Positions 11,086-21,976 of a stretch of 64,000 nt of DNA are shown here, in pieces. A program made the translations under genes and the position numbers. Under the pieces are notes generated by a model, which saw nothing but the letters and a program-made list of their open reading frames with translations, had not been told where the DNA came from and searched no databases. This DNA is from Kitasatospora sp. A2-31 (GTDB lineage Bacteria > Actinomycetota > Actinomycetes > Streptomycetales > Streptomycetaceae), in the NCBI RefSeq assembly GCF_022288725.1, contig NZ_JAKNTA010000003.1, positions 383,286 through 447,285 of the forward strand. The letters are read 5' to 3'. The first letter of the stretch is position 1; each line of letters starts with the position of its first letter.

Positions 11086-12117
11086 ATGCGCAAGACCGCT
11101 GCCAAGCTGCTCGCCGTTGCCGCCATCGCCACTTCGGTCGCCACCGTCGCCGCCGGCACCGCCGTCGCCGACCCGGCCGTCACCCCGGCCGCCGCCGACA
11201 TCGTCAGCGTGGGCTCCGACACGACCCAGGCCGTGTCGACCCAGTTCTCCGCCGACTACAACGCGTACCTGACCAGCATCGGCGACACCACCTCGCCGCG
11301 GTACTACAGCTGGGACGCGACCGGTTCCGCCACCATCACCCCGAAGTCCGGCGCCTCCGCCATCACCCGTCCGAACGGCTCGGGCGCCGGCATCACCGAG
11401 CTGAACACGGCCGGCTCCAAGGTCGACGTCGCCCGCTCCTCGCGTGCCCCGAAGGCGACCGACCCGGCCTCCGACATCTTCGTCGCGTTCGCCAAGGACG
11501 CGGTGACCTGGTCGGCCAACAACGGCGGCCACGCGCCGGCCAGCCTGACCGCCGCCCAGCTCAAGGGCATCTACGACTGCTCCGTCACCAACTGGACGCA
11601 GATCAGCGCCACCCTGCCGAACGCCACCATCAAGCCGTGGCTGCCGCAGGCCAACTCCGGCACCCGCGCCTTCTTCCTGACCGCGATCGGCAACCCGACC
11701 GTGGGCAGCTGCGTCCAGGACGGCCCGGAGGAGAACGAGGGCGTCGACTCCCGCCTGACCGGCGCCGACGTCGTCTACCCGTACTCGGTCGCGGCCTACC
11801 TGAGCCAGACCGTCGGCGGCCACGGCACGGCCACCTCCAACCCGGGCAGCCTGACCCTGCGCAACGTCGGCACCCTGGTGCCGGTCAACACCACCACCAA
11901 CACCATCAACGCGCCGTTCGCCGCCTCCGCGTTCGGCCGCGTGGTCTACAACGTGGTCCGCAACGCCGAGTGGACCGCGACCGACGCGCACGGCGCCGCG
12001 CTGCGCAACATCTTCGGCCCCTCGGGCTGGATCTGCACCAACGGCAGCAACGACATCAAGAGCTACGGCTTCCTGCCGCTCTCGGCTGCCGCCTGCGGCA
12101 CCACCACCCACAGCTGA
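11086..12117 (+). CDS. Secreted PstS-like phosphate/anion-binding protein (1)
   Basis: 343 aa, ATG preceded by GGAGGA. Sec signal peptide KTAAKLLAVAAIATSVATVA ending near ADPAV. The mature protein begins with the PstS-type fold: VSVGSDTTQ, ITRPNGSGAGI and VDVARSSRAP are positions that in PstS bind the oxyanion through backbone and Ser/Arg contacts; ANSGTRAFF is the hinge-side S-G-T motif. There is no lipobox, so the protein should be released into the wall or medium. First gene of the Pst-like locus, closed by a strong hairpin, so it may be expressed above the later genes. Phosphate is presumed, not shown. Confidence 0.82.
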   Translation: MRKTAAKLLAVAAIATSVATVAAGTAVADPAVTPAAADIVSVGSDTTQAVSTQFSADYNAYLTSIGDTTSPRYYSWDATGSATITPKSGASAITRPNGSGAGITELNTAGSKVDVARSSRAPKATDPASDIFVAFAKDAVTWSANNGGHAPASLTAAQLKGIYDCSVTNWTQISATLPNATIKPWLPQANSGTRAFFLTAIGNPTVGSCVQDGPEENEGVDSRLTGADVVYPYSVAAYLSQTVGGHGTATSNPGSLTLRNVGTLVPVNTTTNTINAPFAASAFGRVVYNVVRNAEWTATDAHGAALRNIFGPSGWICTNGSNDIKSYGFLPLSAAACGTTTHS

Positions 12118-12142
12118 TCTCCGGCTGGTCACGCCGCACCAC

Positions 12143-12249: not shown

Positions 12250-12843
12250 ATGTCCCGTACCCGCGCCTGCCTCGCCGCCGCCGGTGCCGCCGCCGTCCTC
12301 GCCGTGACCGGCCTGAGCGGTGCGGCCGCCGCCGACACCGCCCCGGTGGCGCCGACCGGCAGCGCTGTGGTGCACGAGAGCACCGCGTTCCTCAAGGACG
12401 CGGCCCTCAGCGGTGTGGTGGTCATCCCGCTGCCGGCCGCCACGCCGTCGTACGACGGCACCACCGGCTTCTCCACCACCTTCCCCGTGACCGGTGGCGA
12501 CGCCAACCTCCAGGGCTACTACGGCAATGTCGAGCTGGGCGGCAGCCTGCTCTTCATCGACGTCTTCACCGGCAAGAGCGCGCTCTTCAAGCAGCTCGCC
12601 TTCAGCGCGGACACGTTCCAGATCACCGGTGTCGCGGCCGACGGTGCCGCTGCGGTGGCGCTGCTCGACCCGGCCGGCATGACGGACATCACCCGCTCCG
12701 GCGCGACCCAGAAGGTGACCTCCACCGACCTCAAGGTGGACGCCGAGGGTGCGAAGGTCCTGGACGGCAAGCTGAACACCTCCTTCTTCAAGGGCGGCCA
12801 GTCGGTCGGCGACTTCACGCTGACCTTCACCTCCGGCAGCTGA
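12250..12843 (+). CDS. Secreted beta-rich protein of unknown function
   Basis: 197 aa, ATG 7 nt after AAGGAG. Signal peptide to about residue 30 (VLAVTGLSGAAAADT). The mature part alternates short hydrophobic strands with Gly/Asp/Thr turns (GYYGNVELGGSLLFIDVFTG, SVGDFTLTFTSGS), suggesting a single beta-sandwich; no Cys, no anchor, no catalytic motif seen. The position between binding-protein genes suggests a role at the cell surface with the Pst-like transporter, but this is inference only. Loosely like HtaA-type surface domains; not strong enough to assign. Confidence 0.7.
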   Translation: MSRTRACLAAAGAAAVLAVTGLSGAAAADTAPVAPTGSAVVHESTAFLKDAALSGVVVIPLPAATPSYDGTTGFSTTFPVTGGDANLQGYYGNVELGGSLLFIDVFTGKSALFKQLAFSADTFQITGVAADGAAAVALLDPAGMTDITRSGATQKVTSTDLKVDAEGAKVLDGKLNTSFFKGGQSVGDFTLTFTSGS

Positions 12844-13103: not shown

Positions 13104-15800
13104 ATGAGACTCCGACTCCTACCTGATCCGAGACGCGGGAGGTGGCGCCGGCGACTGCCGGCGATCGCCCTCGTCTGGTCGGTGGTGGTGGCGCTCGGCG
13201 TGGCCCCCGTCGGCCTCGGCGCGCTGCCGCAGGCACAGGCGTCGGTGTCGTCGGCCGTGACGAAGCCCGGGCCGAAGGCGTGGGACCCGAACACCTGGAC
13301 CGAGGGCCCCGAGGGAAGCGTGACGGTGGCCCAGACCAAGGACCTCTCCCACCAGGTGCTGCAGGTCTCCTGGAGCGGGTTCACCCCGACCCTCAACACC
13401 ATGGGCGAGTCGGTGCCCGTCGTCACCAAGGGCGACAAACAGGTCCTGTACGCGGTCCGGGTCTACCAGTGCCGCGGCCTAGACCCGAAGATCACCGACT
13501 GCTACGGCAGCACGCTGTACAACGCCGACCCCGCCAAGGGGTTCGACCAGGTGGCGCCGCCGCAGGGCACCACGACGCCGGACTTCCCCTCCAACATGGC
13601 GATCGCGCCCACCGGGGCGGACGGCTCGGGGGCGACCAGCATCGAGGTGTGGACGGCGACCGAGAGCCCCTCGCTCGGCTGTGACGCCACCCACCCGTGC
13701 TCCCTGGTGATCGAGCCGAACTACGGCGGCGACACCCAGGACCCGAACAAGGTGCGCAACGGCGCGGTCGACTGCACCGACCACCTCAGCGACGTCGACG
13801 GCTTCTTCAACACCGCGAGCGACGGCGGGCTGGAGGCCTACGCGGCGTCCTGGCCCGGCAACGAGTACGCCGGCTTCCAGATCGGTGAGCAGTGCGCCTG
13901 GGAGAAGCGGACCGTCATGCCGCTGTACTTCGCGCCCACCGCGGCGGACTGCGAGAACCGGACCGCGGTGTTCAAGTCGGCCGGGCTGGAGATGGCGAAC
14001 CGCGCCGTCCAGCAGTGGCGGGCCGGGCTCTGCCTCGCCGCCCCGCCGCTCTCCTTCCAGTACTCCGCCTCCGGCGGTGAGCCGCAGGCCCGGCAGGCCT
14101 TCCTGGGCGGCGCCGGCCTCGACGTCGCGCTGACCGCGCGGCCCGACACCGCGACCCCGGCCCGGCCCTACGTCTACGCGCCCCTGGCGACCAGCGGGGT
14201 CTCGGTGGTCTTCGTCGTCGACGACACCAGGACCGGCCGCCAGCTGCGGGACATGAAGCTGACGCCGCGCCTGGTGGCCAAGCTCCTCACCCAGTCGTAC
14301 GCGCCGCCGGGCCTGCCGGTGGCCTCGGTGAACGGCAACCCCAGCTGCATCTTCCAGGACCCGGAGTTCCAGCAGCTGAACCGGTTCCCCGAGGCGAGCG
14401 GCATGCAGTGGCCGTCCTCCTGCGCACCGGCGGAGTTCGAGCCGACCGTCGTCGGCGGCACCACCGACCTCGTGTACCAGTTGACCGCGTGGATCGCCGC
14501 CGACCCGGACGCCACCCGGTTCCTGGACGGCGAGGAGGACCCGTGGGGCATGCGGGTGAACACCTTCTACCAGCGCGGCGCCTTCCCCGGTTACCCGGTG
14601 GACGCCGTCCAGCCGCAGGACTTCTCCGGCCCGACCGGTGCCTCCGAGGCCGCCAGGAAGATGCGGCAGTACGAGTGGAACCCGGTGCTCGGCGGCCTCA
14701 CCCAGGTCTTCCGGACCATCCAGGAGAACCGCTCCACCTGCCAGCTCTGGATGCCCGACGGGACCGGCAACCACCCGAAGTGCGACCCGATGACCCGCGG
14801 CGACCGCAAGCTCTTCGCCGTCATGGACAGCGCCCAGGCCAAGGCGTTCTCGCTCCCCGAGGCGGCCTTGAAGAACCCGGCCGGCGGCTTCGTCCCGCCG
14901 ACCACCAACGGCTTCCAGGCGGCGGTGGGCGACATGACGACCGACGCCGCGACCGGCACCCAGCAGCTCCCGTACGGCGTGGCCGACACCGCGTTCTCCC
15001 GGGACGCGCAGGCCTACCCGCTGACCACCGTCCAGTACGCGATGGTGCCCACCGGCGGGGTGTCCGGCGAGAAGGCGGCGGCGATCAGCCGCTTCCTCAC
15101 CACGGTCGCCGGCAGCGGCCAGGTCTACGGGGTTGAGCCGGGCAGGCTCGCACCGGGCTTCCTGAGCCTGACCGGGGCGCAGCGCCGACAGGCCCTCGAC
15201 GCCGCGAAGCACGTGGAGCTCCAGGACGGCACGTGGCCCGGCAACCAGGTGCCCCCGCCGGCCCCACCGACGAGCGGCGACGGCGGCACCACGGGCGGCA
15301 CGACGGGTGGCGCGACCGGCGGCACGGCCGCCGGTAGCGGGAGCGGGGCCGTGACCGGCGCCGCGGGCACCGGCGGCGCGGCCCCGGTCGCCGACGGCAC
15401 GACAGCCGGCGGCTCGTACGGCGGGTCCTCCTCCGGCAGCACCGGCAGCACCGGCGGCCCGGGCGTCGAGAGCGCCACCGGCGGGGCGACCGGCACCACC
15501 GGCACCACCGGCGGCACCGGCGCCCTCCCGGCGAACGCGACCCCGGCACCGACCGCCGCGAAGCCCACCGCCACGCCGAGCGCCCCGGCCGGCCCGCTCG
15601 CGGCCGCCCCGGTGGCGGCCGGCAGCCCGGCCGCCGACCGGGCCGGCACCGCCCGGCTGCTGCTGCCGGTCGCGGTGATCGCGGGCCTGGTGCTGCTGAT
15701 CGGCGGCCCGGCGGCGCTCCTGCTCGGCGGCACGCCCGCCGGTGAGCGGGCGATGGCCGCGACGGGCCGGGCCTGGGCGCGGCTGCGCCGCCGGCCCTGA
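13104..15800 (+). CDS. Large membrane-anchored PstS-like binding protein (2)
   Basis: 898 aa, ATG 8 nt after GGAGG. Signal sequence (RRLPAIALVWSVVVALGV) then a long extracellular region containing several Cys and a PstS-like core: APLATSGVSVVFVVDD, LTPRLVAKLLTQSY and SYAP-type loops correspond to the segment after the hinge in PstS proteins, and LTTVQYAMVPTGG with SRFLTTVAGSGQ to the last helices. From ~715 a Gly/Thr/Ala linker of ~120 residues leads to one transmembrane helix (LLLPVAVIAGLVLLIGG) and a short basic tail. It is thus tethered to the membrane outer face, unlike gene 1. About 2.5 times the usual PstS length. Confidence 0.75.
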   Translation: MRLRLLPDPRRGRWRRRLPAIALVWSVVVALGVAPVGLGALPQAQASVSSAVTKPGPKAWDPNTWTEGPEGSVTVAQTKDLSHQVLQVSWSGFTPTLNTMGESVPVVTKGDKQVLYAVRVYQCRGLDPKITDCYGSTLYNADPAKGFDQVAPPQGTTTPDFPSNMAIAPTGADGSGATSIEVWTATESPSLGCDATHPCSLVIEPNYGGDTQDPNKVRNGAVDCTDHLSDVDGFFNTASDGGLEAYAASWPGNEYAGFQIGEQCAWEKRTVMPLYFAPTAADCENRTAVFKSAGLEMANRAVQQWRAGLCLAAPPLSFQYSASGGEPQARQAFLGGAGLDVALTARPDTATPARPYVYAPLATSGVSVVFVVDDTRTGRQLRDMKLTPRLVAKLLTQSYAPPGLPVASVNGNPSCIFQDPEFQQLNRFPEASGMQWPSSCAPAEFEPTVVGGTTDLVYQLTAWIAADPDATRFLDGEEDPWGMRVNTFYQRGAFPGYPVDAVQPQDFSGPTGASEAARKMRQYEWNPVLGGLTQVFRTIQENRSTCQLWMPDGTGNHPKCDPMTRGDRKLFAVMDSAQAKAFSLPEAALKNPAGGFVPPTTNGFQAAVGDMTTDAATGTQQLPYGVADTAFSRDAQAYPLTTVQYAMVPTGGVSGEKAAAISRFLTTVAGSGQVYGVEPGRLAPGFLSLTGAQRRQALDAAKHVELQDGTWPGNQVPPPAPPTSGDGGTTGGTTGGATGGTAAGSGSGAVTGAAGTGGAAPVADGTTAGGSYGGSSSGSTGSTGGPGVESATGGATGTTGTTGGTGALPANATPAPTAAKPTATPSAPAGPLAAAPVAAGSPAADRAGTARLLLPVAVIAGLVLLIGGPAALLLGGTPAGERAMAATGRAWARLRRRP

Positions 15801-15930: not shown

Positions 15931-16950
15931 ATGACAGCCGCCGCCGAGCCCGCGGCACCGCACGCCGGGGCTCCACGTCCACCCGATCCCGATGTCCCCC
16001 GCGTCATCACCGCCCCTGCCACCTCGGGAGACCGGATGTTCCGCGGGGTGCTGCGGGTGGCGGGTCTCTCGGTCTTCGCGATCATGGGGCTGATCGCGTT
16101 CTTCCTGATCCTGCGCGGCGCGAGCGCGCTGGGCGAGGTGGGCTGGTCCTTCCTTACCGAACAGAGGTGGCAGACCCAGGCGCACAACTTCGGCATCGCC
16201 GCGGTGCTCCCGAACGGCCTGCTGATCGCGGTCATCGCGCTGGTCGTCGCCGTCCCGGTGGCGCTCGCCACGGCGGTCTTCATCTCCGAGTACGCGCCCG
16301 CCCGGCTGCGCGCCACGCTGATCTCGCTGGTCGACCTGATGGCGGCGATCCCCAGCATCGTCTACGGCCTCTGGGGGCTGTTCTTCCTCCAGCCGCGGAT
16401 CATCGGCTTCGTCCGCTGGACGGCCAACCACCTGGGGGACGCGATCCCCTTCCTCAAGGTGCGCACCGGCGACATCGGGACGTCGTACACGTCCTCGACC
16501 TTCATCGCCGGGGTGGTCGTCTCCCTGATGATCATCCCGATCGTCACCTCGCTCAGCCGGGAGGTGTTCTCGCAGGCCCCGCAGGGCGAGCGGGAGGGCG
16601 CCTACGCGCTGGGCTCCACCCGGTGGGGGATGGTCCGCACGGTGGTGCTGCCGTTCGGCCGCGGGGGTGTGATCGGCGCGGTGATGCTCGGCTTCGGCCG
16701 GGCGATGGGCGAGACCATCGCCGTCGCGCTGATCATCTCGCCGAACTTCAAGGCGATCACCCACGTGCTGGAGAACGGCGCCAACTCGATCTCGGCGCTG
16801 ATCGCGCTGCGGTTCGGCGAGTCGGACGACCTCTCGCTCTCCGCGCTGATGGCGGCCGGGCTGGTGCTCTTCGGGCTCACCCTGCTGGTCAACCTGGCGG
16901 CCGGGTTCGTGATCAACCGCTCCCGCTCCGGCGCCTCGACGGCGGACTGA
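15931..16950 (+). CDS. pstC: Phosphate ABC transporter permease PstC
   Basis: 339 aa; proline-rich cytoplasmic N-terminus of ~35 residues, then about six helices. Contains LMAAIPSIVYGLWGLFFL, typical of PstC/PstA, and the EAA-type loop EREGAYALGSTRWGMVRTVVLP that contacts the ATPase, followed by RAMGETIAVALI. ATG at 15931 chosen for length. Followed 58 nt later by pstA. Confidence 0.93.
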   Translation: MTAAAEPAAPHAGAPRPPDPDVPRVITAPATSGDRMFRGVLRVAGLSVFAIMGLIAFFLILRGASALGEVGWSFLTEQRWQTQAHNFGIAAVLPNGLLIAVIALVVAVPVALATAVFISEYAPARLRATLISLVDLMAAIPSIVYGLWGLFFLQPRIIGFVRWTANHLGDAIPFLKVRTGDIGTSYTSSTFIAGVVVSLMIIPIVTSLSREVFSQAPQGEREGAYALGSTRWGMVRTVVLPFGRGGVIGAVMLGFGRAMGETIAVALIISPNFKAITHVLENGANSISALIALRFGESDDLSLSALMAAGLVLFGLTLLVNLAAGFVINRSRSGASTAD

Positions 16951-17008: not shown

Positions 17009-18196
17009 ATGACCACCCTCGACCTGCCGCCGGCCACGGAAGCCGCACCGGCCGCCGCGGCCGCCGCCGTCGAACCACCCGCCCCCGAGAAGCGGATCCG
17101 GCTCGGCGGCGTCACCGCCGAGGACGCGCTGACCCTGGCCGGTGCGCTGACCGGCTCGCTGGGCCTGGACTGGATGCTCTACGAGCGGGTCCTGCCGTTC
17201 AGCGGTGCGTTCGGCTTCCTGCTCTGCTGGTACGTCCTCTTCCTGTTCGGCTACCTCGCCATCGGCCGGCTCCAGTGGGGCCCGCTGGTGGTCCGCGACC
17301 GCCTGGTCTCGGTGGTCGCCTGGAGCTCCGGCGTGCTGGTGGTCGGCCTGATCGCCGACCAGATCGGCTTCGTGCTGGCCCGCGGCCTGGAGGCGGCCGA
17401 GCACCTCAACTTCTTCACCGAGTCGATGGACCACACCGCCGCGCTCTCCCCGATCACCTCGGGCGGTGCGCTCAACGCCATCGTCGGCTCGCTCGAACAG
17501 CTCGCCCTGACCACGCTGTTCGCCGTTCCGCTGGGCATCGCGGCGGCCGTCTTCATGTCCGAGGTCGGTGGCCGGATGGCCCGGCCGGTGCGGACGCTGG
17601 TCGAGGCGATGACGGCGCTGCCGTCGATCGTCGCCGGGCTGTTCATCCTCGGTGTGGTGATCATCACCTTCGGGTTCGAGAAGAGCGGCCTCGCGGCCTC
17701 GCTCGCCTGCACCGTGATGACGATGCCGATCGTCACCCGGGCCGCCGAGGTGGTGATCCGGCTGGTGCCGGGCACCCTGCGGGAGGCCTCCTACGCGCTC
17801 GGCGGCAGCCAGTGGCGCACGGTGTGGAACGTCGTGCTGCCCACCGCCCGGCCCGGCCTGGTGACCGCGGTGGTGCTCGGCATGGCGCGCGGCGTCGGGG
17901 AGACCTCGCCGGTGCTGCTGACCTCGGGCTTCACCTCGCAGTTCAACGCCGACCCGTTCAGCGAGCACCAGGTCTCCCTGCCGCTGTACATCTGGAACTA
18001 CGTCAAGCAGCCCTACCCGGAGATGATCTCGCGTGCCTTCGCGGCCGGGCTGACCCTGATGGGCGTGGTCCTGATCCTGTTCGTCACCGCGCGCGTGCTC
18101 GGCGGCCGCCGCCCCGGCCGGTTGACCCGGCGCCAGGTGCGCCGGATCGAGCGCTCGGCCCGCCGTGCCGCGGCCGCCGCCGCCGGGACGCACTGA
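17009..18196 (+). CDS. pstA: Phosphate ABC transporter permease PstA
   Basis: 395 aa with an Ala-rich cytoplasmic leader, two extra N-terminal helices and a six-helix binding-protein-dependent permease domain. EAMTALPSIVAGLFILGVV and REASYALGGSQWRTVWNVVLP (EAA loop) are characteristic, with ARGVGETSPVLL near the C-terminus. ATG preceded by GAAGGGA. The stop overlaps a possible ATG of the next gene by one base, though the next gene's better start is 18235. Confidence 0.93.
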   Translation: MTTLDLPPATEAAPAAAAAAVEPPAPEKRIRLGGVTAEDALTLAGALTGSLGLDWMLYERVLPFSGAFGFLLCWYVLFLFGYLAIGRLQWGPLVVRDRLVSVVAWSSGVLVVGLIADQIGFVLARGLEAAEHLNFFTESMDHTAALSPITSGGALNAIVGSLEQLALTTLFAVPLGIAAAVFMSEVGGRMARPVRTLVEAMTALPSIVAGLFILGVVIITFGFEKSGLAASLACTVMTMPIVTRAAEVVIRLVPGTLREASYALGGSQWRTVWNVVLPTARPGLVTAVVLGMARGVGETSPVLLTSGFTSQFNADPFSEHQVSLPLYIWNYVKQPYPEMISRAFAAGLTLMGVVLILFVTARVLGGRRPGRLTRRQVRRIERSARRAAAAAAGTH

Positions 18197-18234: not shown

Positions 18235-20121
18235 ATGTCGTGGGAGGCCGCAAGCCGCCCCGTGGCACGCCCGCTTGCCGTGCTGCTGTCCCTGATGCTC
18301 GCCGCGGGCTCCCTGCTGCTGGGGCAGAGCACCCCGGCGTTCGCGGCGACCGCGCTCAACGCCGACGGGTCCAGCTGGGCCGGTCCGGCCATCGACCAGT
18401 GGCGCCAGGACGTCGCCCCGCAGGGCATCCAGATCAACTTCAACCCGATCGGTTCGGCGGCCGGCCGCAACCAGTGGAGCATCGGCCAGGACGACTTCAC
18501 CGCCTCCGACGTGCCGTTCCGTTCGAAGTCGGACACCGGGCTCGGCCAGGCCGGCCAGGCCGGCGGCGGCGGCAAGCCCGAGAACCCGCGGTACGGGTTC
18601 TCCTACGTGCCGATCACCGCCGGGGGGACGACCTTCATGTACAACCTGGTCGTCGCCGGCAAGCAGGTGCGCGACCTGCGGCTCTCCCCGCAGACGATCG
18701 TCGACATCTTCACCAACAGGATCACCAACTGGAACGACCCGAAGATCACCGCGGACTACGGCAGGGCCCTGCCCTCGCTGCCGATCACCCCGGTGGTCCG
18801 CTCGGACGGCTCGGGCGCCACCGCGCAGTTCACCCGCTGGATGAGCCACACCCACGGCGCGCAGTGGGAGGAGTACTGCAAGGCCGTCAACGGCATCTCG
18901 TGCGGCGAGTACACCGAGTTCTTCCCGCCCTCCGGCCGGATGACCGCACAGAACGGCTCCGACGTGGTCGCCGGCTACATCAAGGCGCCGTCCGGACTCG
19001 GCACCATCGGCTACGACGAGTACGCCTTCGCCAAGCGCAGCAACTGGCCGGTCGTGAAGGTGCTCAACCCGGCCGGCTACTACGCGTTGCCGACCGCCTC
19101 CAACGTGGCCGTCGCACTCACCGCCGCCAGGATCCGCGGGGTCGACGACGCAACGGCGCCCGACGACCCGGACTACCTGCAGCAGAACCTCGACGGCGTC
19201 TACACCATGAACGACCCGCGCTCCTACCCGCTGTCCAGCTACAGCTACGTGATCGTGCCGCGGGCCGGGGCCGCGCTGCCGCCGCCGCCACGCTTCAACG
19301 ACGACAAGGGCAGTGCGCTCAGCAGGTTCCTGGCCTACGTGCTCTGTGAGGGCCAGGGCGAGGCGGACGGCCTCGGCTACTCCCCGATCCCGCGCAACCT
19401 GGTCCGCGGCGGTCTGCTGCAGACCCGGCACATCCCCGGCAACGCCAGCCCGGTGGACCCCGACTCGCTCTCCAACTGCAACAACCCGACCTTCAACCAG
19501 GCCGGTGAACTGACCGTCCTCAAGAACGCCCCGCAGCCCAGCCCGTGCGACAAGCAGGGCGCGCCGCTGGACTGCACGGTGCAGAACGGCCAGCCCGTGA
19601 AGAGCGGTTCGGGCTCCGGCGGCTCGGCGCCGGGCTCCGGCTCCGGCGGCTCCGGCGCCGGCGGGGCCGTGACCGGCGGCAGCGGCACGTCCGGCTCGGC
19701 GGGCTCCTCCGGCGGCGGGCGCAAGCCCGGCGCGACCGGCACCGGCAGCGGCACCTCCGGCGGCGCCGGCGGCACGGCCGGCAGCGGCGGCGCCGCGGGA
19801 GGCTCCTCCGGCGCCGGCGGGACCGGCCCCGGCGACACCGGCCAGCCCGCGGACGGCGGGGACGCCGGCGGTGCGGCGGGCGGCGGCGACCCGGTGGCCG
19901 AGGAGGTCGTCGACCCCCAGACCGGCCAGGTGGTCGCGCGCGGCCGCGGCGGCACGGGCACCGGGGAGGTCCCGGCCAACGTGGTCGCGGTGGACGGGCG
20001 CCCCGAGGACTGGACGCTCTCCGTCCTCACCGCGATCGAACTGCTCGCCGTGGTGACCGTCCCACCGCTGCTCGGCCGCCGCCTGCTGCGGCGCCGCGAC
20101 GGCGCCGGCGGCCGGTCGTGA
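18235..20121 (+). CDS. Membrane-anchored PstS-like binding protein (3)
   Basis: 628 aa. ATG 18235 chosen over the overlapping ATG 18196 because AGAGGAG lies 5 nt upstream and a clean signal peptide follows (PLAVLLSLMLAAGSLLLGQ, cleavage after TPAFA). PstS fold: GPAIDQWRQDV, FTASDVPF, TTFMYNLVVAGKQVRDLRLS, FTNRITNWNDPKI and VRSDGSGATAQFTRWM are close to canonical PstS, so anion binding is likely intact. Residues ~455-585 form a Gly/Ser linker, followed by one helix (SVLTAIELLAVVTVPPLL) and a basic tail, tethering it to the membrane. Overlaps the next gene by 4 nt. Confidence 0.85.
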   Translation: MSWEAASRPVARPLAVLLSLMLAAGSLLLGQSTPAFAATALNADGSSWAGPAIDQWRQDVAPQGIQINFNPIGSAAGRNQWSIGQDDFTASDVPFRSKSDTGLGQAGQAGGGGKPENPRYGFSYVPITAGGTTFMYNLVVAGKQVRDLRLSPQTIVDIFTNRITNWNDPKITADYGRALPSLPITPVVRSDGSGATAQFTRWMSHTHGAQWEEYCKAVNGISCGEYTEFFPPSGRMTAQNGSDVVAGYIKAPSGLGTIGYDEYAFAKRSNWPVVKVLNPAGYYALPTASNVAVALTAARIRGVDDATAPDDPDYLQQNLDGVYTMNDPRSYPLSSYSYVIVPRAGAALPPPPRFNDDKGSALSRFLAYVLCEGQGEADGLGYSPIPRNLVRGGLLQTRHIPGNASPVDPDSLSNCNNPTFNQAGELTVLKNAPQPSPCDKQGAPLDCTVQNGQPVKSGSGSGGSAPGSGSGGSGAGGAVTGGSGTSGSAGSSGGGRKPGATGTGSGTSGGAGGTAGSGGAAGGSSGAGGTGPGDTGQPADGGDAGGAAGGGDPVAEEVVDPQTGQVVARGRGGTGTGEVPANVVAVDGRPEDWTLSVLTAIELLAVVTVPPLLGRRLLRRRDGAGGRS

Positions 20122-21053
20122 CGGCCCCGGCGCTGGAGAAGCCGGGCGCCGCCGCGCAGCCCGCGCCGCCGGCGGGAGAAGCTGCGCAGCCGGCCTCCGC
20201 CCGGGAGCGCGGGGCGGCCGGGCGGCGGACGGCCGGGGCGCCCGGACGGCGGCGGTTCCTCCAGGCGGCCTGGGCGGTCTCCCTGCTGGCCGCACTGATC
20301 ACGGGCTTCGTCGGCTACCTGTTCACGCTCTCGCACCTCCAGGAGCGGCACTTCCAGTCCACCGCCCACAAGACGTTCCGGGACCAGCTGGCCCGGGCGG
20401 TCGCCCCGACCGGCGCCGCCGGGGACGGAGACCCGGTCGCGCTGCTCGACATCCCGGCGATCGGCCTGCACCAGGCCGTCGTGGTGGAGGGCACCACCGG
20501 CCGGGACCTCATGCGCGGTCCCGGCCACCGCCGGGACACGGCGCTGCCGGGTCAGAGCGGGGTGGCGGTGGTGTTCGGCCGCGGGGCCACGTTCGGCGCG
20601 CCGTTCGCCGAGCTCGCCAAGCTGCGGGTCGGCGACCGGATCGAGGCCACCACCGGCCAGGGCAGGTTCACCTACACCGTCAACGTGTACGGCGACGGCG
20701 ACCACCCGATCAGCGACCCGGCCCGCAACCGCCTGGTGCTGGTCACCGGGGACTCCGACTGGATCCCCGGCTCCACGGTGACGGTCGGCGCCCGGCTGGA
20801 GGGCGAGCCGGAGGTGAACCCCGGAGGCCGGCCCGCCACCGTCCCGTACGACAAGGCGCTGGCCGCCGACAAGGGCGCGCTGGCCACGCTGCAGCTGTGG
20901 ACGCTCGGGCTGCTCGGTGCGGTGGTCGCCGTCACCGTGCTGGCCCGGATCTGGCACCGCTCCGCGGCCTACCTCAGCCTCGCGCCGGTGGTCGGCGCGC
21001 TGCTCTGGGCGGTCTACGAGAACGCCGCCGCCCTGCTGCCCAACCTCTACTGA
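20118..21053 (+). CDS. Membrane protein with degenerate (catalytically dead) sortase domain
   Basis: 311 aa, GTG overlapping the previous stop (GTGA). N-terminal helix (AWAVSLLAALITGFVGYLF), an extracellular domain, then two C-terminal helices. The domain has sortase landmarks in order: LLDIPAIGLHQAVVVEGTT, MRGPGHRRDTALPGQSG, TFGAPFAELAKLRVGDRI and LVLVTGDSDW. In active sortases these read AGHRTTYGAPF (catalytic His) and TLTTC (catalytic Cys), with a later Arg. Here His is replaced by Arg in VVFGRGATFGAPF, Cys by Gly in LVTGDSD, and no Arg is in place, so transpeptidation is not expected. In an operon with the Pst-like genes it may be a structural or assembly factor for the anchored binding proteins (inference). 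Confidence 0.75.
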   Translation: MTAPALEKPGAAAQPAPPAGEAAQPASARERGAAGRRTAGAPGRRRFLQAAWAVSLLAALITGFVGYLFTLSHLQERHFQSTAHKTFRDQLARAVAPTGAAGDGDPVALLDIPAIGLHQAVVVEGTTGRDLMRGPGHRRDTALPGQSGVAVVFGRGATFGAPFAELAKLRVGDRIEATTGQGRFTYTVNVYGDGDHPISDPARNRLVLVTGDSDWIPGSTVTVGARLEGEPEVNPGGRPATVPYDKALAADKGALATLQLWTLGLLGAVVAVTVLARIWHRSAAYLSLAPVVGALLWAVYENAAALLPNLY

Positions 21054-21076: not shown

Positions 21077-21976
21077 ATGACGGATGCACAGATGACCGAC
21101 GCCCCGCTGCCCGACCGGTCGGCAGCGGCCGGACCGGTCGACCCGGCGGCCGGGACCCTCACCCTGCCGCCGGTCCCGGCGGCGCCCGCGGACGGCGTCC
21201 CGCTGGCCGCGTTGGAGACCCGCGACGTCTCCGCCTGGTTCGGCGCCCGCAAGGTGCTGGAGCGGGTCTCGCTGGCCATGACCGCGGGGGAGGTGACCGC
21301 GCTGATCGGCCCGTCGGGCTGCGGCAAGTCCACCTACCTGCGGATCCTCAACCGGATGCACGAGATGGTGCGCGGCGCGGCGCTCTCCGGCGAGGTGCTG
21401 CTGGACGGCGACGACGTCTACCGGCCGGGCCGGCGGCCCGCGGAGGTGCGCCGCCGGATCGGGATGGTGTTCCAGCGGCCGAACCCGTTCCCGGCGATGT
21501 CCGTCCAGGACAACGTCTCCAGCGGGCTGAAGCTGGCCGGCATCAAGGTGTCCCGGGAGGAGCGCGAGCACCTGGTGGAGACCAGCCTGCGCCGGGCCGG
21601 GCTCTGGGACGAGGTCTCCAGCCGGCTGCAGACCCCCGGTGGCTCGCTCTCCGGCGGGCAGCAGCAGCGCCTCTGCATCGCCCGGTCGCTGGCCGTCTCG
21701 CCGGACATCCTGCTGATGGACGAGCCGTGCTCGGCGCTCGACCCGACCTCGACCCGGCGGGTCGAGGAGACCATCGCGGAGCTGCGCGGGCGGCTGACCA
21801 TCGTGATCGTCACCCACAACATGCAGCAGGCGCAGCGGGTCTCGCAGTCCTGCGCGTTCTTCCTGGCCACCCACGACACCCCGGGCCGGATCGTCGAGGC
21901 CGGGCCGACCGAGCAGTTGTTCGGTGCCCCGCGCGACCGGCGGACCGCCGACTACGTCAACGGCCGCTTCGGGTAG
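21077..21976 (+). CDS. pstB: Phosphate ABC transporter ATP-binding protein PstB
   Basis: 299 aa, ATG 9 nt after GGAGG. An acidic/proline N-terminus of ~45 residues precedes the ATPase. Walker A GPSGCGKST, Q-loop VFQRPNPFPAMS (a PstB hallmark), signature LSGGQQQRLCIAR, Walker B ILLMDEPCSALDP and switch His in VTHNMQQAQR are all intact, and DYVNGRFG is the standard PstB C-terminus. It energises the PstC/PstA pair encoded upstream. The distance from the pstA gene is unusual: a binding protein and the sortase-like gene intervene. Confidence 0.94.
   Translation: MTDAQMTDAPLPDRSAAAGPVDPAAGTLTLPPVPAAPADGVPLAALETRDVSAWFGARKVLERVSLAMTAGEVTALIGPSGCGKSTYLRILNRMHEMVRGAALSGEVLLDGDDVYRPGRRPAEVRRRIGMVFQRPNPFPAMSVQDNVSSGLKLAGIKVSREEREHLVETSLRRAGLWDEVSSRLQTPGGSLSGGQQQRLCIARSLAVSPDILLMDEPCSALDPTSTRRVEETIAELRGRLTIVIVTHNMQQAQRVSQSCAFFLATHDTPGRIVEAGPTEQLFGAPRDRRTADYVNGRFG

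Follow-up and report, generated by a model that had tools for sequence, protein, structure and literature searches.

Sortases are enzymes that staple proteins to bacterial cell walls. The class E sortases of Streptomyces (5go5, 5cuw) and the class D sortase 4d70 share their fold (Z 15-18) with a protein of Kitasatospora sp. A2-31 that we refer to here as the pseudo-sortase. Unlike these enzymes it is without the active-site His, Cys and Arg, has two extra C-terminal membrane helices and is encoded in an importer locus. A group of active sortases (L060/L089, L091, L092 and L070) shares with the pseudo-sortase the LLP ending of a C-terminal helix and an extended match to the family profile, but in these proteins His, Cys and Arg are intact, they fall outside the pseudo-sortase clade and, at the two loci examined (L089 and L091), they adjoin an ABC ATPase and a CcmB gene rather than Pst genes. 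The Kitasatospora genome itself contains eight other sortase-domain matches, all outside the window, by which we mean the whole 64,000 nucleotide stretch analysed. Two of them (C57:7735-8010 and C146:61457-61732) have an identical score and open-frame length, which points to a duplicate or an assembly effect. In Actinoplanes missouriensis five sortase candidates have been described in a paper whose main text contains neither phosphate nor the word ‘catalytic’ (PMC13251363). A literature search, with most subscription papers outside its reach, found no earlier description of inactive sortases, pseudo-sortases or sortases associated with Pst loci.

The importer genes also have a close counterpart in the canonical PstSCAB system of the same genome (C212, about 630-634 kb), which has PstC, PstA, PstB and a PstS-like protein as does the window locus. 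The canonical copy has a perfect PHO-box repeat and a lipoprotein PstS, and no pseudo-sortase within the 9 kb examined, whereas in the window the locus encodes several binding proteins (two have C-terminal helices) as well as the pseudo-sortase; no PHO-box-like repeat was detected in the window at the threshold used. A further likeness is to the clusters of WxL proteins and WxL-interacting proteins of Firmicutes, since WxLIP_PGBD proteins and Ig-like proteins with WxL-like ends are found in some related loci (type B, below). However, neither WxL nor WxLIP proteins were found in the window's own operon, which is of type A, and the WxL domain itself stays below threshold.

A sortase-fold protein among Pst-type genes

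The locus lies on the forward strand in the order SBP0, sec1, bigPBP, pstC, pstA, PBP2, pseudo-sortase, pstB. The permease genes pstC (15931..16950) and pstA (17009..18196) score above their NCBIfam cut-offs (TIGR02138, 260.8 bits against 196; TIGR00974, 213.3 bits against 193), which agrees with an earlier sequence-only reading that had placed the pseudo-sortase inside a Pst-type operon. The ATPase gene pstB (21077..21976) falls just below its own (TIGR00972, 334.7 bits against 343.2) and the PstS score of the locus, at 156 bits, is under the NCBIfam cut-off of 205. SBP0 (11086..12118) encodes a secreted, divergent PstS-like binding protein (Pfam PBP_like_2, 50.6 bits) that is conserved in the locus and is without a C-terminal membrane anchor as judged by hydropathy. 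The product of sec1 (12250..12843), a gene restricted to type A loci, is a secreted protein whose model (pLDDT 84.7) resembles the Corynebacterium HtaA CR2 heme-binding domain with a Z of 14.2, the next family reaching 5.8. It has no Pfam match and the HtaA Pfam domain (PF04213) matches nothing in the genome, so that this likeness is one of fold only. The gene bigPBP (13104..15800) encodes a large binding-protein-like surface protein with a C-terminal membrane helix and no Pfam match.

PBP2 (18235..20121) is a PstS-like binding protein with a Gly/Ser-rich linker and a C-terminal membrane helix. In alignment with E. coli PstS it keeps the equivalents of S38, D56, R135, S139 and G140, while that of T141 is Ala; these are positions that we take to be phosphate contacts. 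Because most of them are kept in this PstS-like member, the ligand of the importer is probably phosphate. At the C-terminus, PBP2 and bigPBP alike have a membrane helix followed by a basic tail, and no convincing sorting motif was found on these tails across loci, a single loose pattern match occurring in L143.

The pseudo-sortase gene (20118..21053, forward strand) is a real open reading frame of 311 codons with a GTG start. This start overlaps the TGA stop of PBP2 in the sequence GTGA (20118-20121), and an overlap of the form xTGA recurs in nine of the ten relatives compared; together with the C-terminal membrane helix of PBP2, this bears out the earlier claim of translational coupling to an anchored PstS-like gene. 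The protein has an N-terminal membrane helix, a sortase-fold outer domain at approximately residues 100-230, two C-terminal helices and the C-terminal end LLPNLY. A hydropathy scan and the model place the helices at about 47-71, 252-278 and 281-310, in line with the three that had been proposed, although the third, which is helical in the model, has a summed hydropathy just below the scan threshold.

Residues 110-190 match the Pfam Sortase profile with 51.3 bits against a cut-off of 26.6, but the match covers positions 1-81 of 125 and so leaves the half with the catalytic Cys unaligned. The top NCBIfam family is the class E sortase NF033747, with 68.3 bits against a cut-off of 160. An AlphaFold2 model (pLDDT 78) matched sortase structures with a Foldseek E of 2e-11; over 126 residues at 1.9 A the Z scores were 17.6 for sortase D and 17.3 for sortase E. 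In this model the outer domain clearly has the sortase beta-barrel fold, as had been proposed from the letters of the sequence, and the sortase strand and turn motifs quoted at that time are present in the protein.

Loss of the active site across the family

Alignment with Streptomyces avermitilis sortase E and with active sortases from the same genome places Arg155 (codon 20580..20582, forward strand) at the position of the catalytic His (VVFGRGATFG against VAGHRRTYG) and Gly211 (codon 20748..20750, forward strand) at that of the catalytic Cys (LVLVTGDSDW against LTLTTCTP). The late active-site Arg is missing, so that, as had been claimed, no catalytic residue is left. A protein search combined with surveys of relatives, phylum and class yielded a family of 58 members spread across Actinomycetota. 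Its members score at least 199 bits, apart from the fragment L113, and all other homologues score at most 130. They also form one clade, all lying on one side of a branch with an SH-aLRT of 97, in a quick tree that was built with the catalytic columns excluded and has some long branches and an arbitrary root.

The catalytic His is replaced by Arg in 54 members and by Lys in three, the last having a gap, and the Cys column holds Gly, Ser, Ala or Thr but Cys in none of the 58. Homologues with an intact His or Cys in a Pst-type locus, which would have told against the sequence-only reading, were looked for and none was found: both residues are absent from every member that covers these columns. 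In the nearest homologues outside such a locus His, Cys and Arg are all intact. Among the lower-scoring homologues that cover the columns Cys is always retained, and His in all save L083, a sortase outside the family with Asp at this position. In the basal member L059/L088 the active-site Arg survives although His and Cys are gone, which makes it an apparent intermediate in the loss of the catalytic residues. From these alignments, the loss of the active site is not local decay. Among close Kitasatospora relatives the pairwise dN/dS of the domain is 0.13-0.41, and the N-terminal tail is drifting (dN 0.33-0.70). Taken with the charge conserved at residue 155, this constraint argues against decay of the pseudo-sortase.

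Linkage to importer genes

Genes of the Pst-type locus (counted as pstC, pstA, pstB, the PstS-like protein, bigPBP or the secreted binding protein) adjoin 57 of the 58 family members. The expectation that homologues always sit beside pstA/pstB-like genes was therefore upheld in terms of locus genes for all but one member, L100, which lies at a contig end. Gene order in these loci is variable while the linkage persists, and in L087 the pseudo-sortase is divergent from pstCAB within the same locus. In another genome (G018) the pseudo-sortase is truncated (L041), with pstB still adjoining.

In a sample of 98 genomes of the class, 16 have both the pseudo-sortase and bigPBP, and each gene occurs alone in two (Fisher p ~2e-14); of these four exceptions, three come from assemblies at most 78% complete. 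Three genomes (G198, G233 and G237) have two copies of each gene; neither gene occurs in the five other genomes that this sample includes from the window's own family. The loci of Streptomycetales are of two types. Type A, to which the window locus belongs, has sec1, and type B has WxL-like and WxLIP-like proteins. Type A occurs in 14 of 24 Kitasatospora relatives of the same genus (truncated in one), type B in three and both types in none; in Catenulispora-like genomes the two types often occur together. In the type B loci L134, L138 and L127, WxLIP_PGBD proteins above the Pfam cut-off and Ig-like proteins with WxL-like ends adjoin the Pst genes. An apparent type B fusion of the pseudo-sortase with the protein upstream (a long open reading frame in L043) was rejected, as GC-rich DNA accounts for the open frame and the pseudo-sortase has its own ATG start.

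Possible roles of the pseudo-sortase

Sequence comparison and modelling thus show a sortase fold, loss of all catalytic residues, grouping in a single clade, replacement of His by Arg or Lys, constraint on the domain and a linkage that is fixed despite rearranged gene order. The idea of a dead sortase built into a Pst-type locus has stood, and the association extends far beyond a single window. As the active site is wholly lost and the protein is nevertheless retained phylum-wide in an importer cluster, it is probably a non-enzymatic part of a surface machine. We consider it fairly probable that the pseudo-sortase is a dedicated membrane-anchored, non-catalytic subunit on the outer face of an accessory Pst-type ABC importer with PstS-related binding proteins. 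The old sorting-signal groove, unable to cut, would hold a partner. The best candidate is a stretch of the tethered binding proteins, either their linker or the segment next to the membrane, with PstCA as another; binding proteins held in this way would stay beside the permease. We place docking of this kind first for two reasons: the binding proteins have the general build of sortase substrates (linker, helix and basic tail) with no convincing cut motif, and the outer face on which they lie is also the predicted side of the pseudo-sortase domain. Taking gene linkage, topology and these partner tails together, we infer, as the sequence-only reading had suggested, that the pseudo-sortase may organise tethered binding proteins near PstCA. 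The groove could also be empty. The divergent arrangement of L087 is a point against the subunit reading, and the PstS and PstB scores under the NCBIfam cut-offs and the lack of a PHO-box-like repeat in the window tell against phosphate as the ligand.

The pocket might instead be a ligand site in which the Arg or Lys that replaces His binds an anion, such as phosphate or a phosphorylated envelope polymer, making the protein a receptor or relay and not a scaffold. The exclusively positive charge at this position, the phosphate-type importer locus and the phosphate contacts of the PstS-like member are consistent with such a role, but the other two catalytic positions are variable and the Arg might equally make an internal salt bridge, and we regard this explanation as unlikely. 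It is more doubtful still that the pseudo-sortase acts as an antagonist or chaperone, binding sorting signals or tethered proteins uncut and so shielding them from active sortases. The genome does have its eight further sortase-domain matches and the partners resemble sortase substrates that have no cut site; however, partners without a convincing sorting motif have little that needs protection, and the linkage is to importer genes and not to active sortase genes.

Continued enzymatic activity through another nucleophile or chemistry appears very improbable. In its favour, the fold survives together with much of the motif sequence around the site, and Ser or Thr takes the place of Cys in some members, but with Gly, Ala, Ser and Thr all found there no single nucleophile is conserved, and the general base His is gone from every member that covers its column. 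A decaying, functionless sortase remnant, which the lost catalytic residues and the truncated copy of G018 might suggest, is scarcely credible given the phylum-wide retention, the consistent Arg or Lys for His, the constrained domain and the fixed locus; as an account of the whole family, decay is refuted by conservation.

For the subunit reading at the level of the family, we lean slightly towards a pseudoenzyme that arose once, early in Actinomycetota, and was fixed as a structural or ligand-relay subunit in a multi-receptor surface importer not described before. This importer would combine a Pst permease and ATPase with several tethered or secreted binding proteins, many members adding WxL-like or HtaA-like surface proteins. 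Automatic annotation may label proteins of this family as sortases. A consistently inactive sortase, present phylum-wide and linked to an importer, would mean that the sortase fold can serve without catalysis, and would suggest that actinobacteria capture nutrients with a surface machine that has gone unrecognised.
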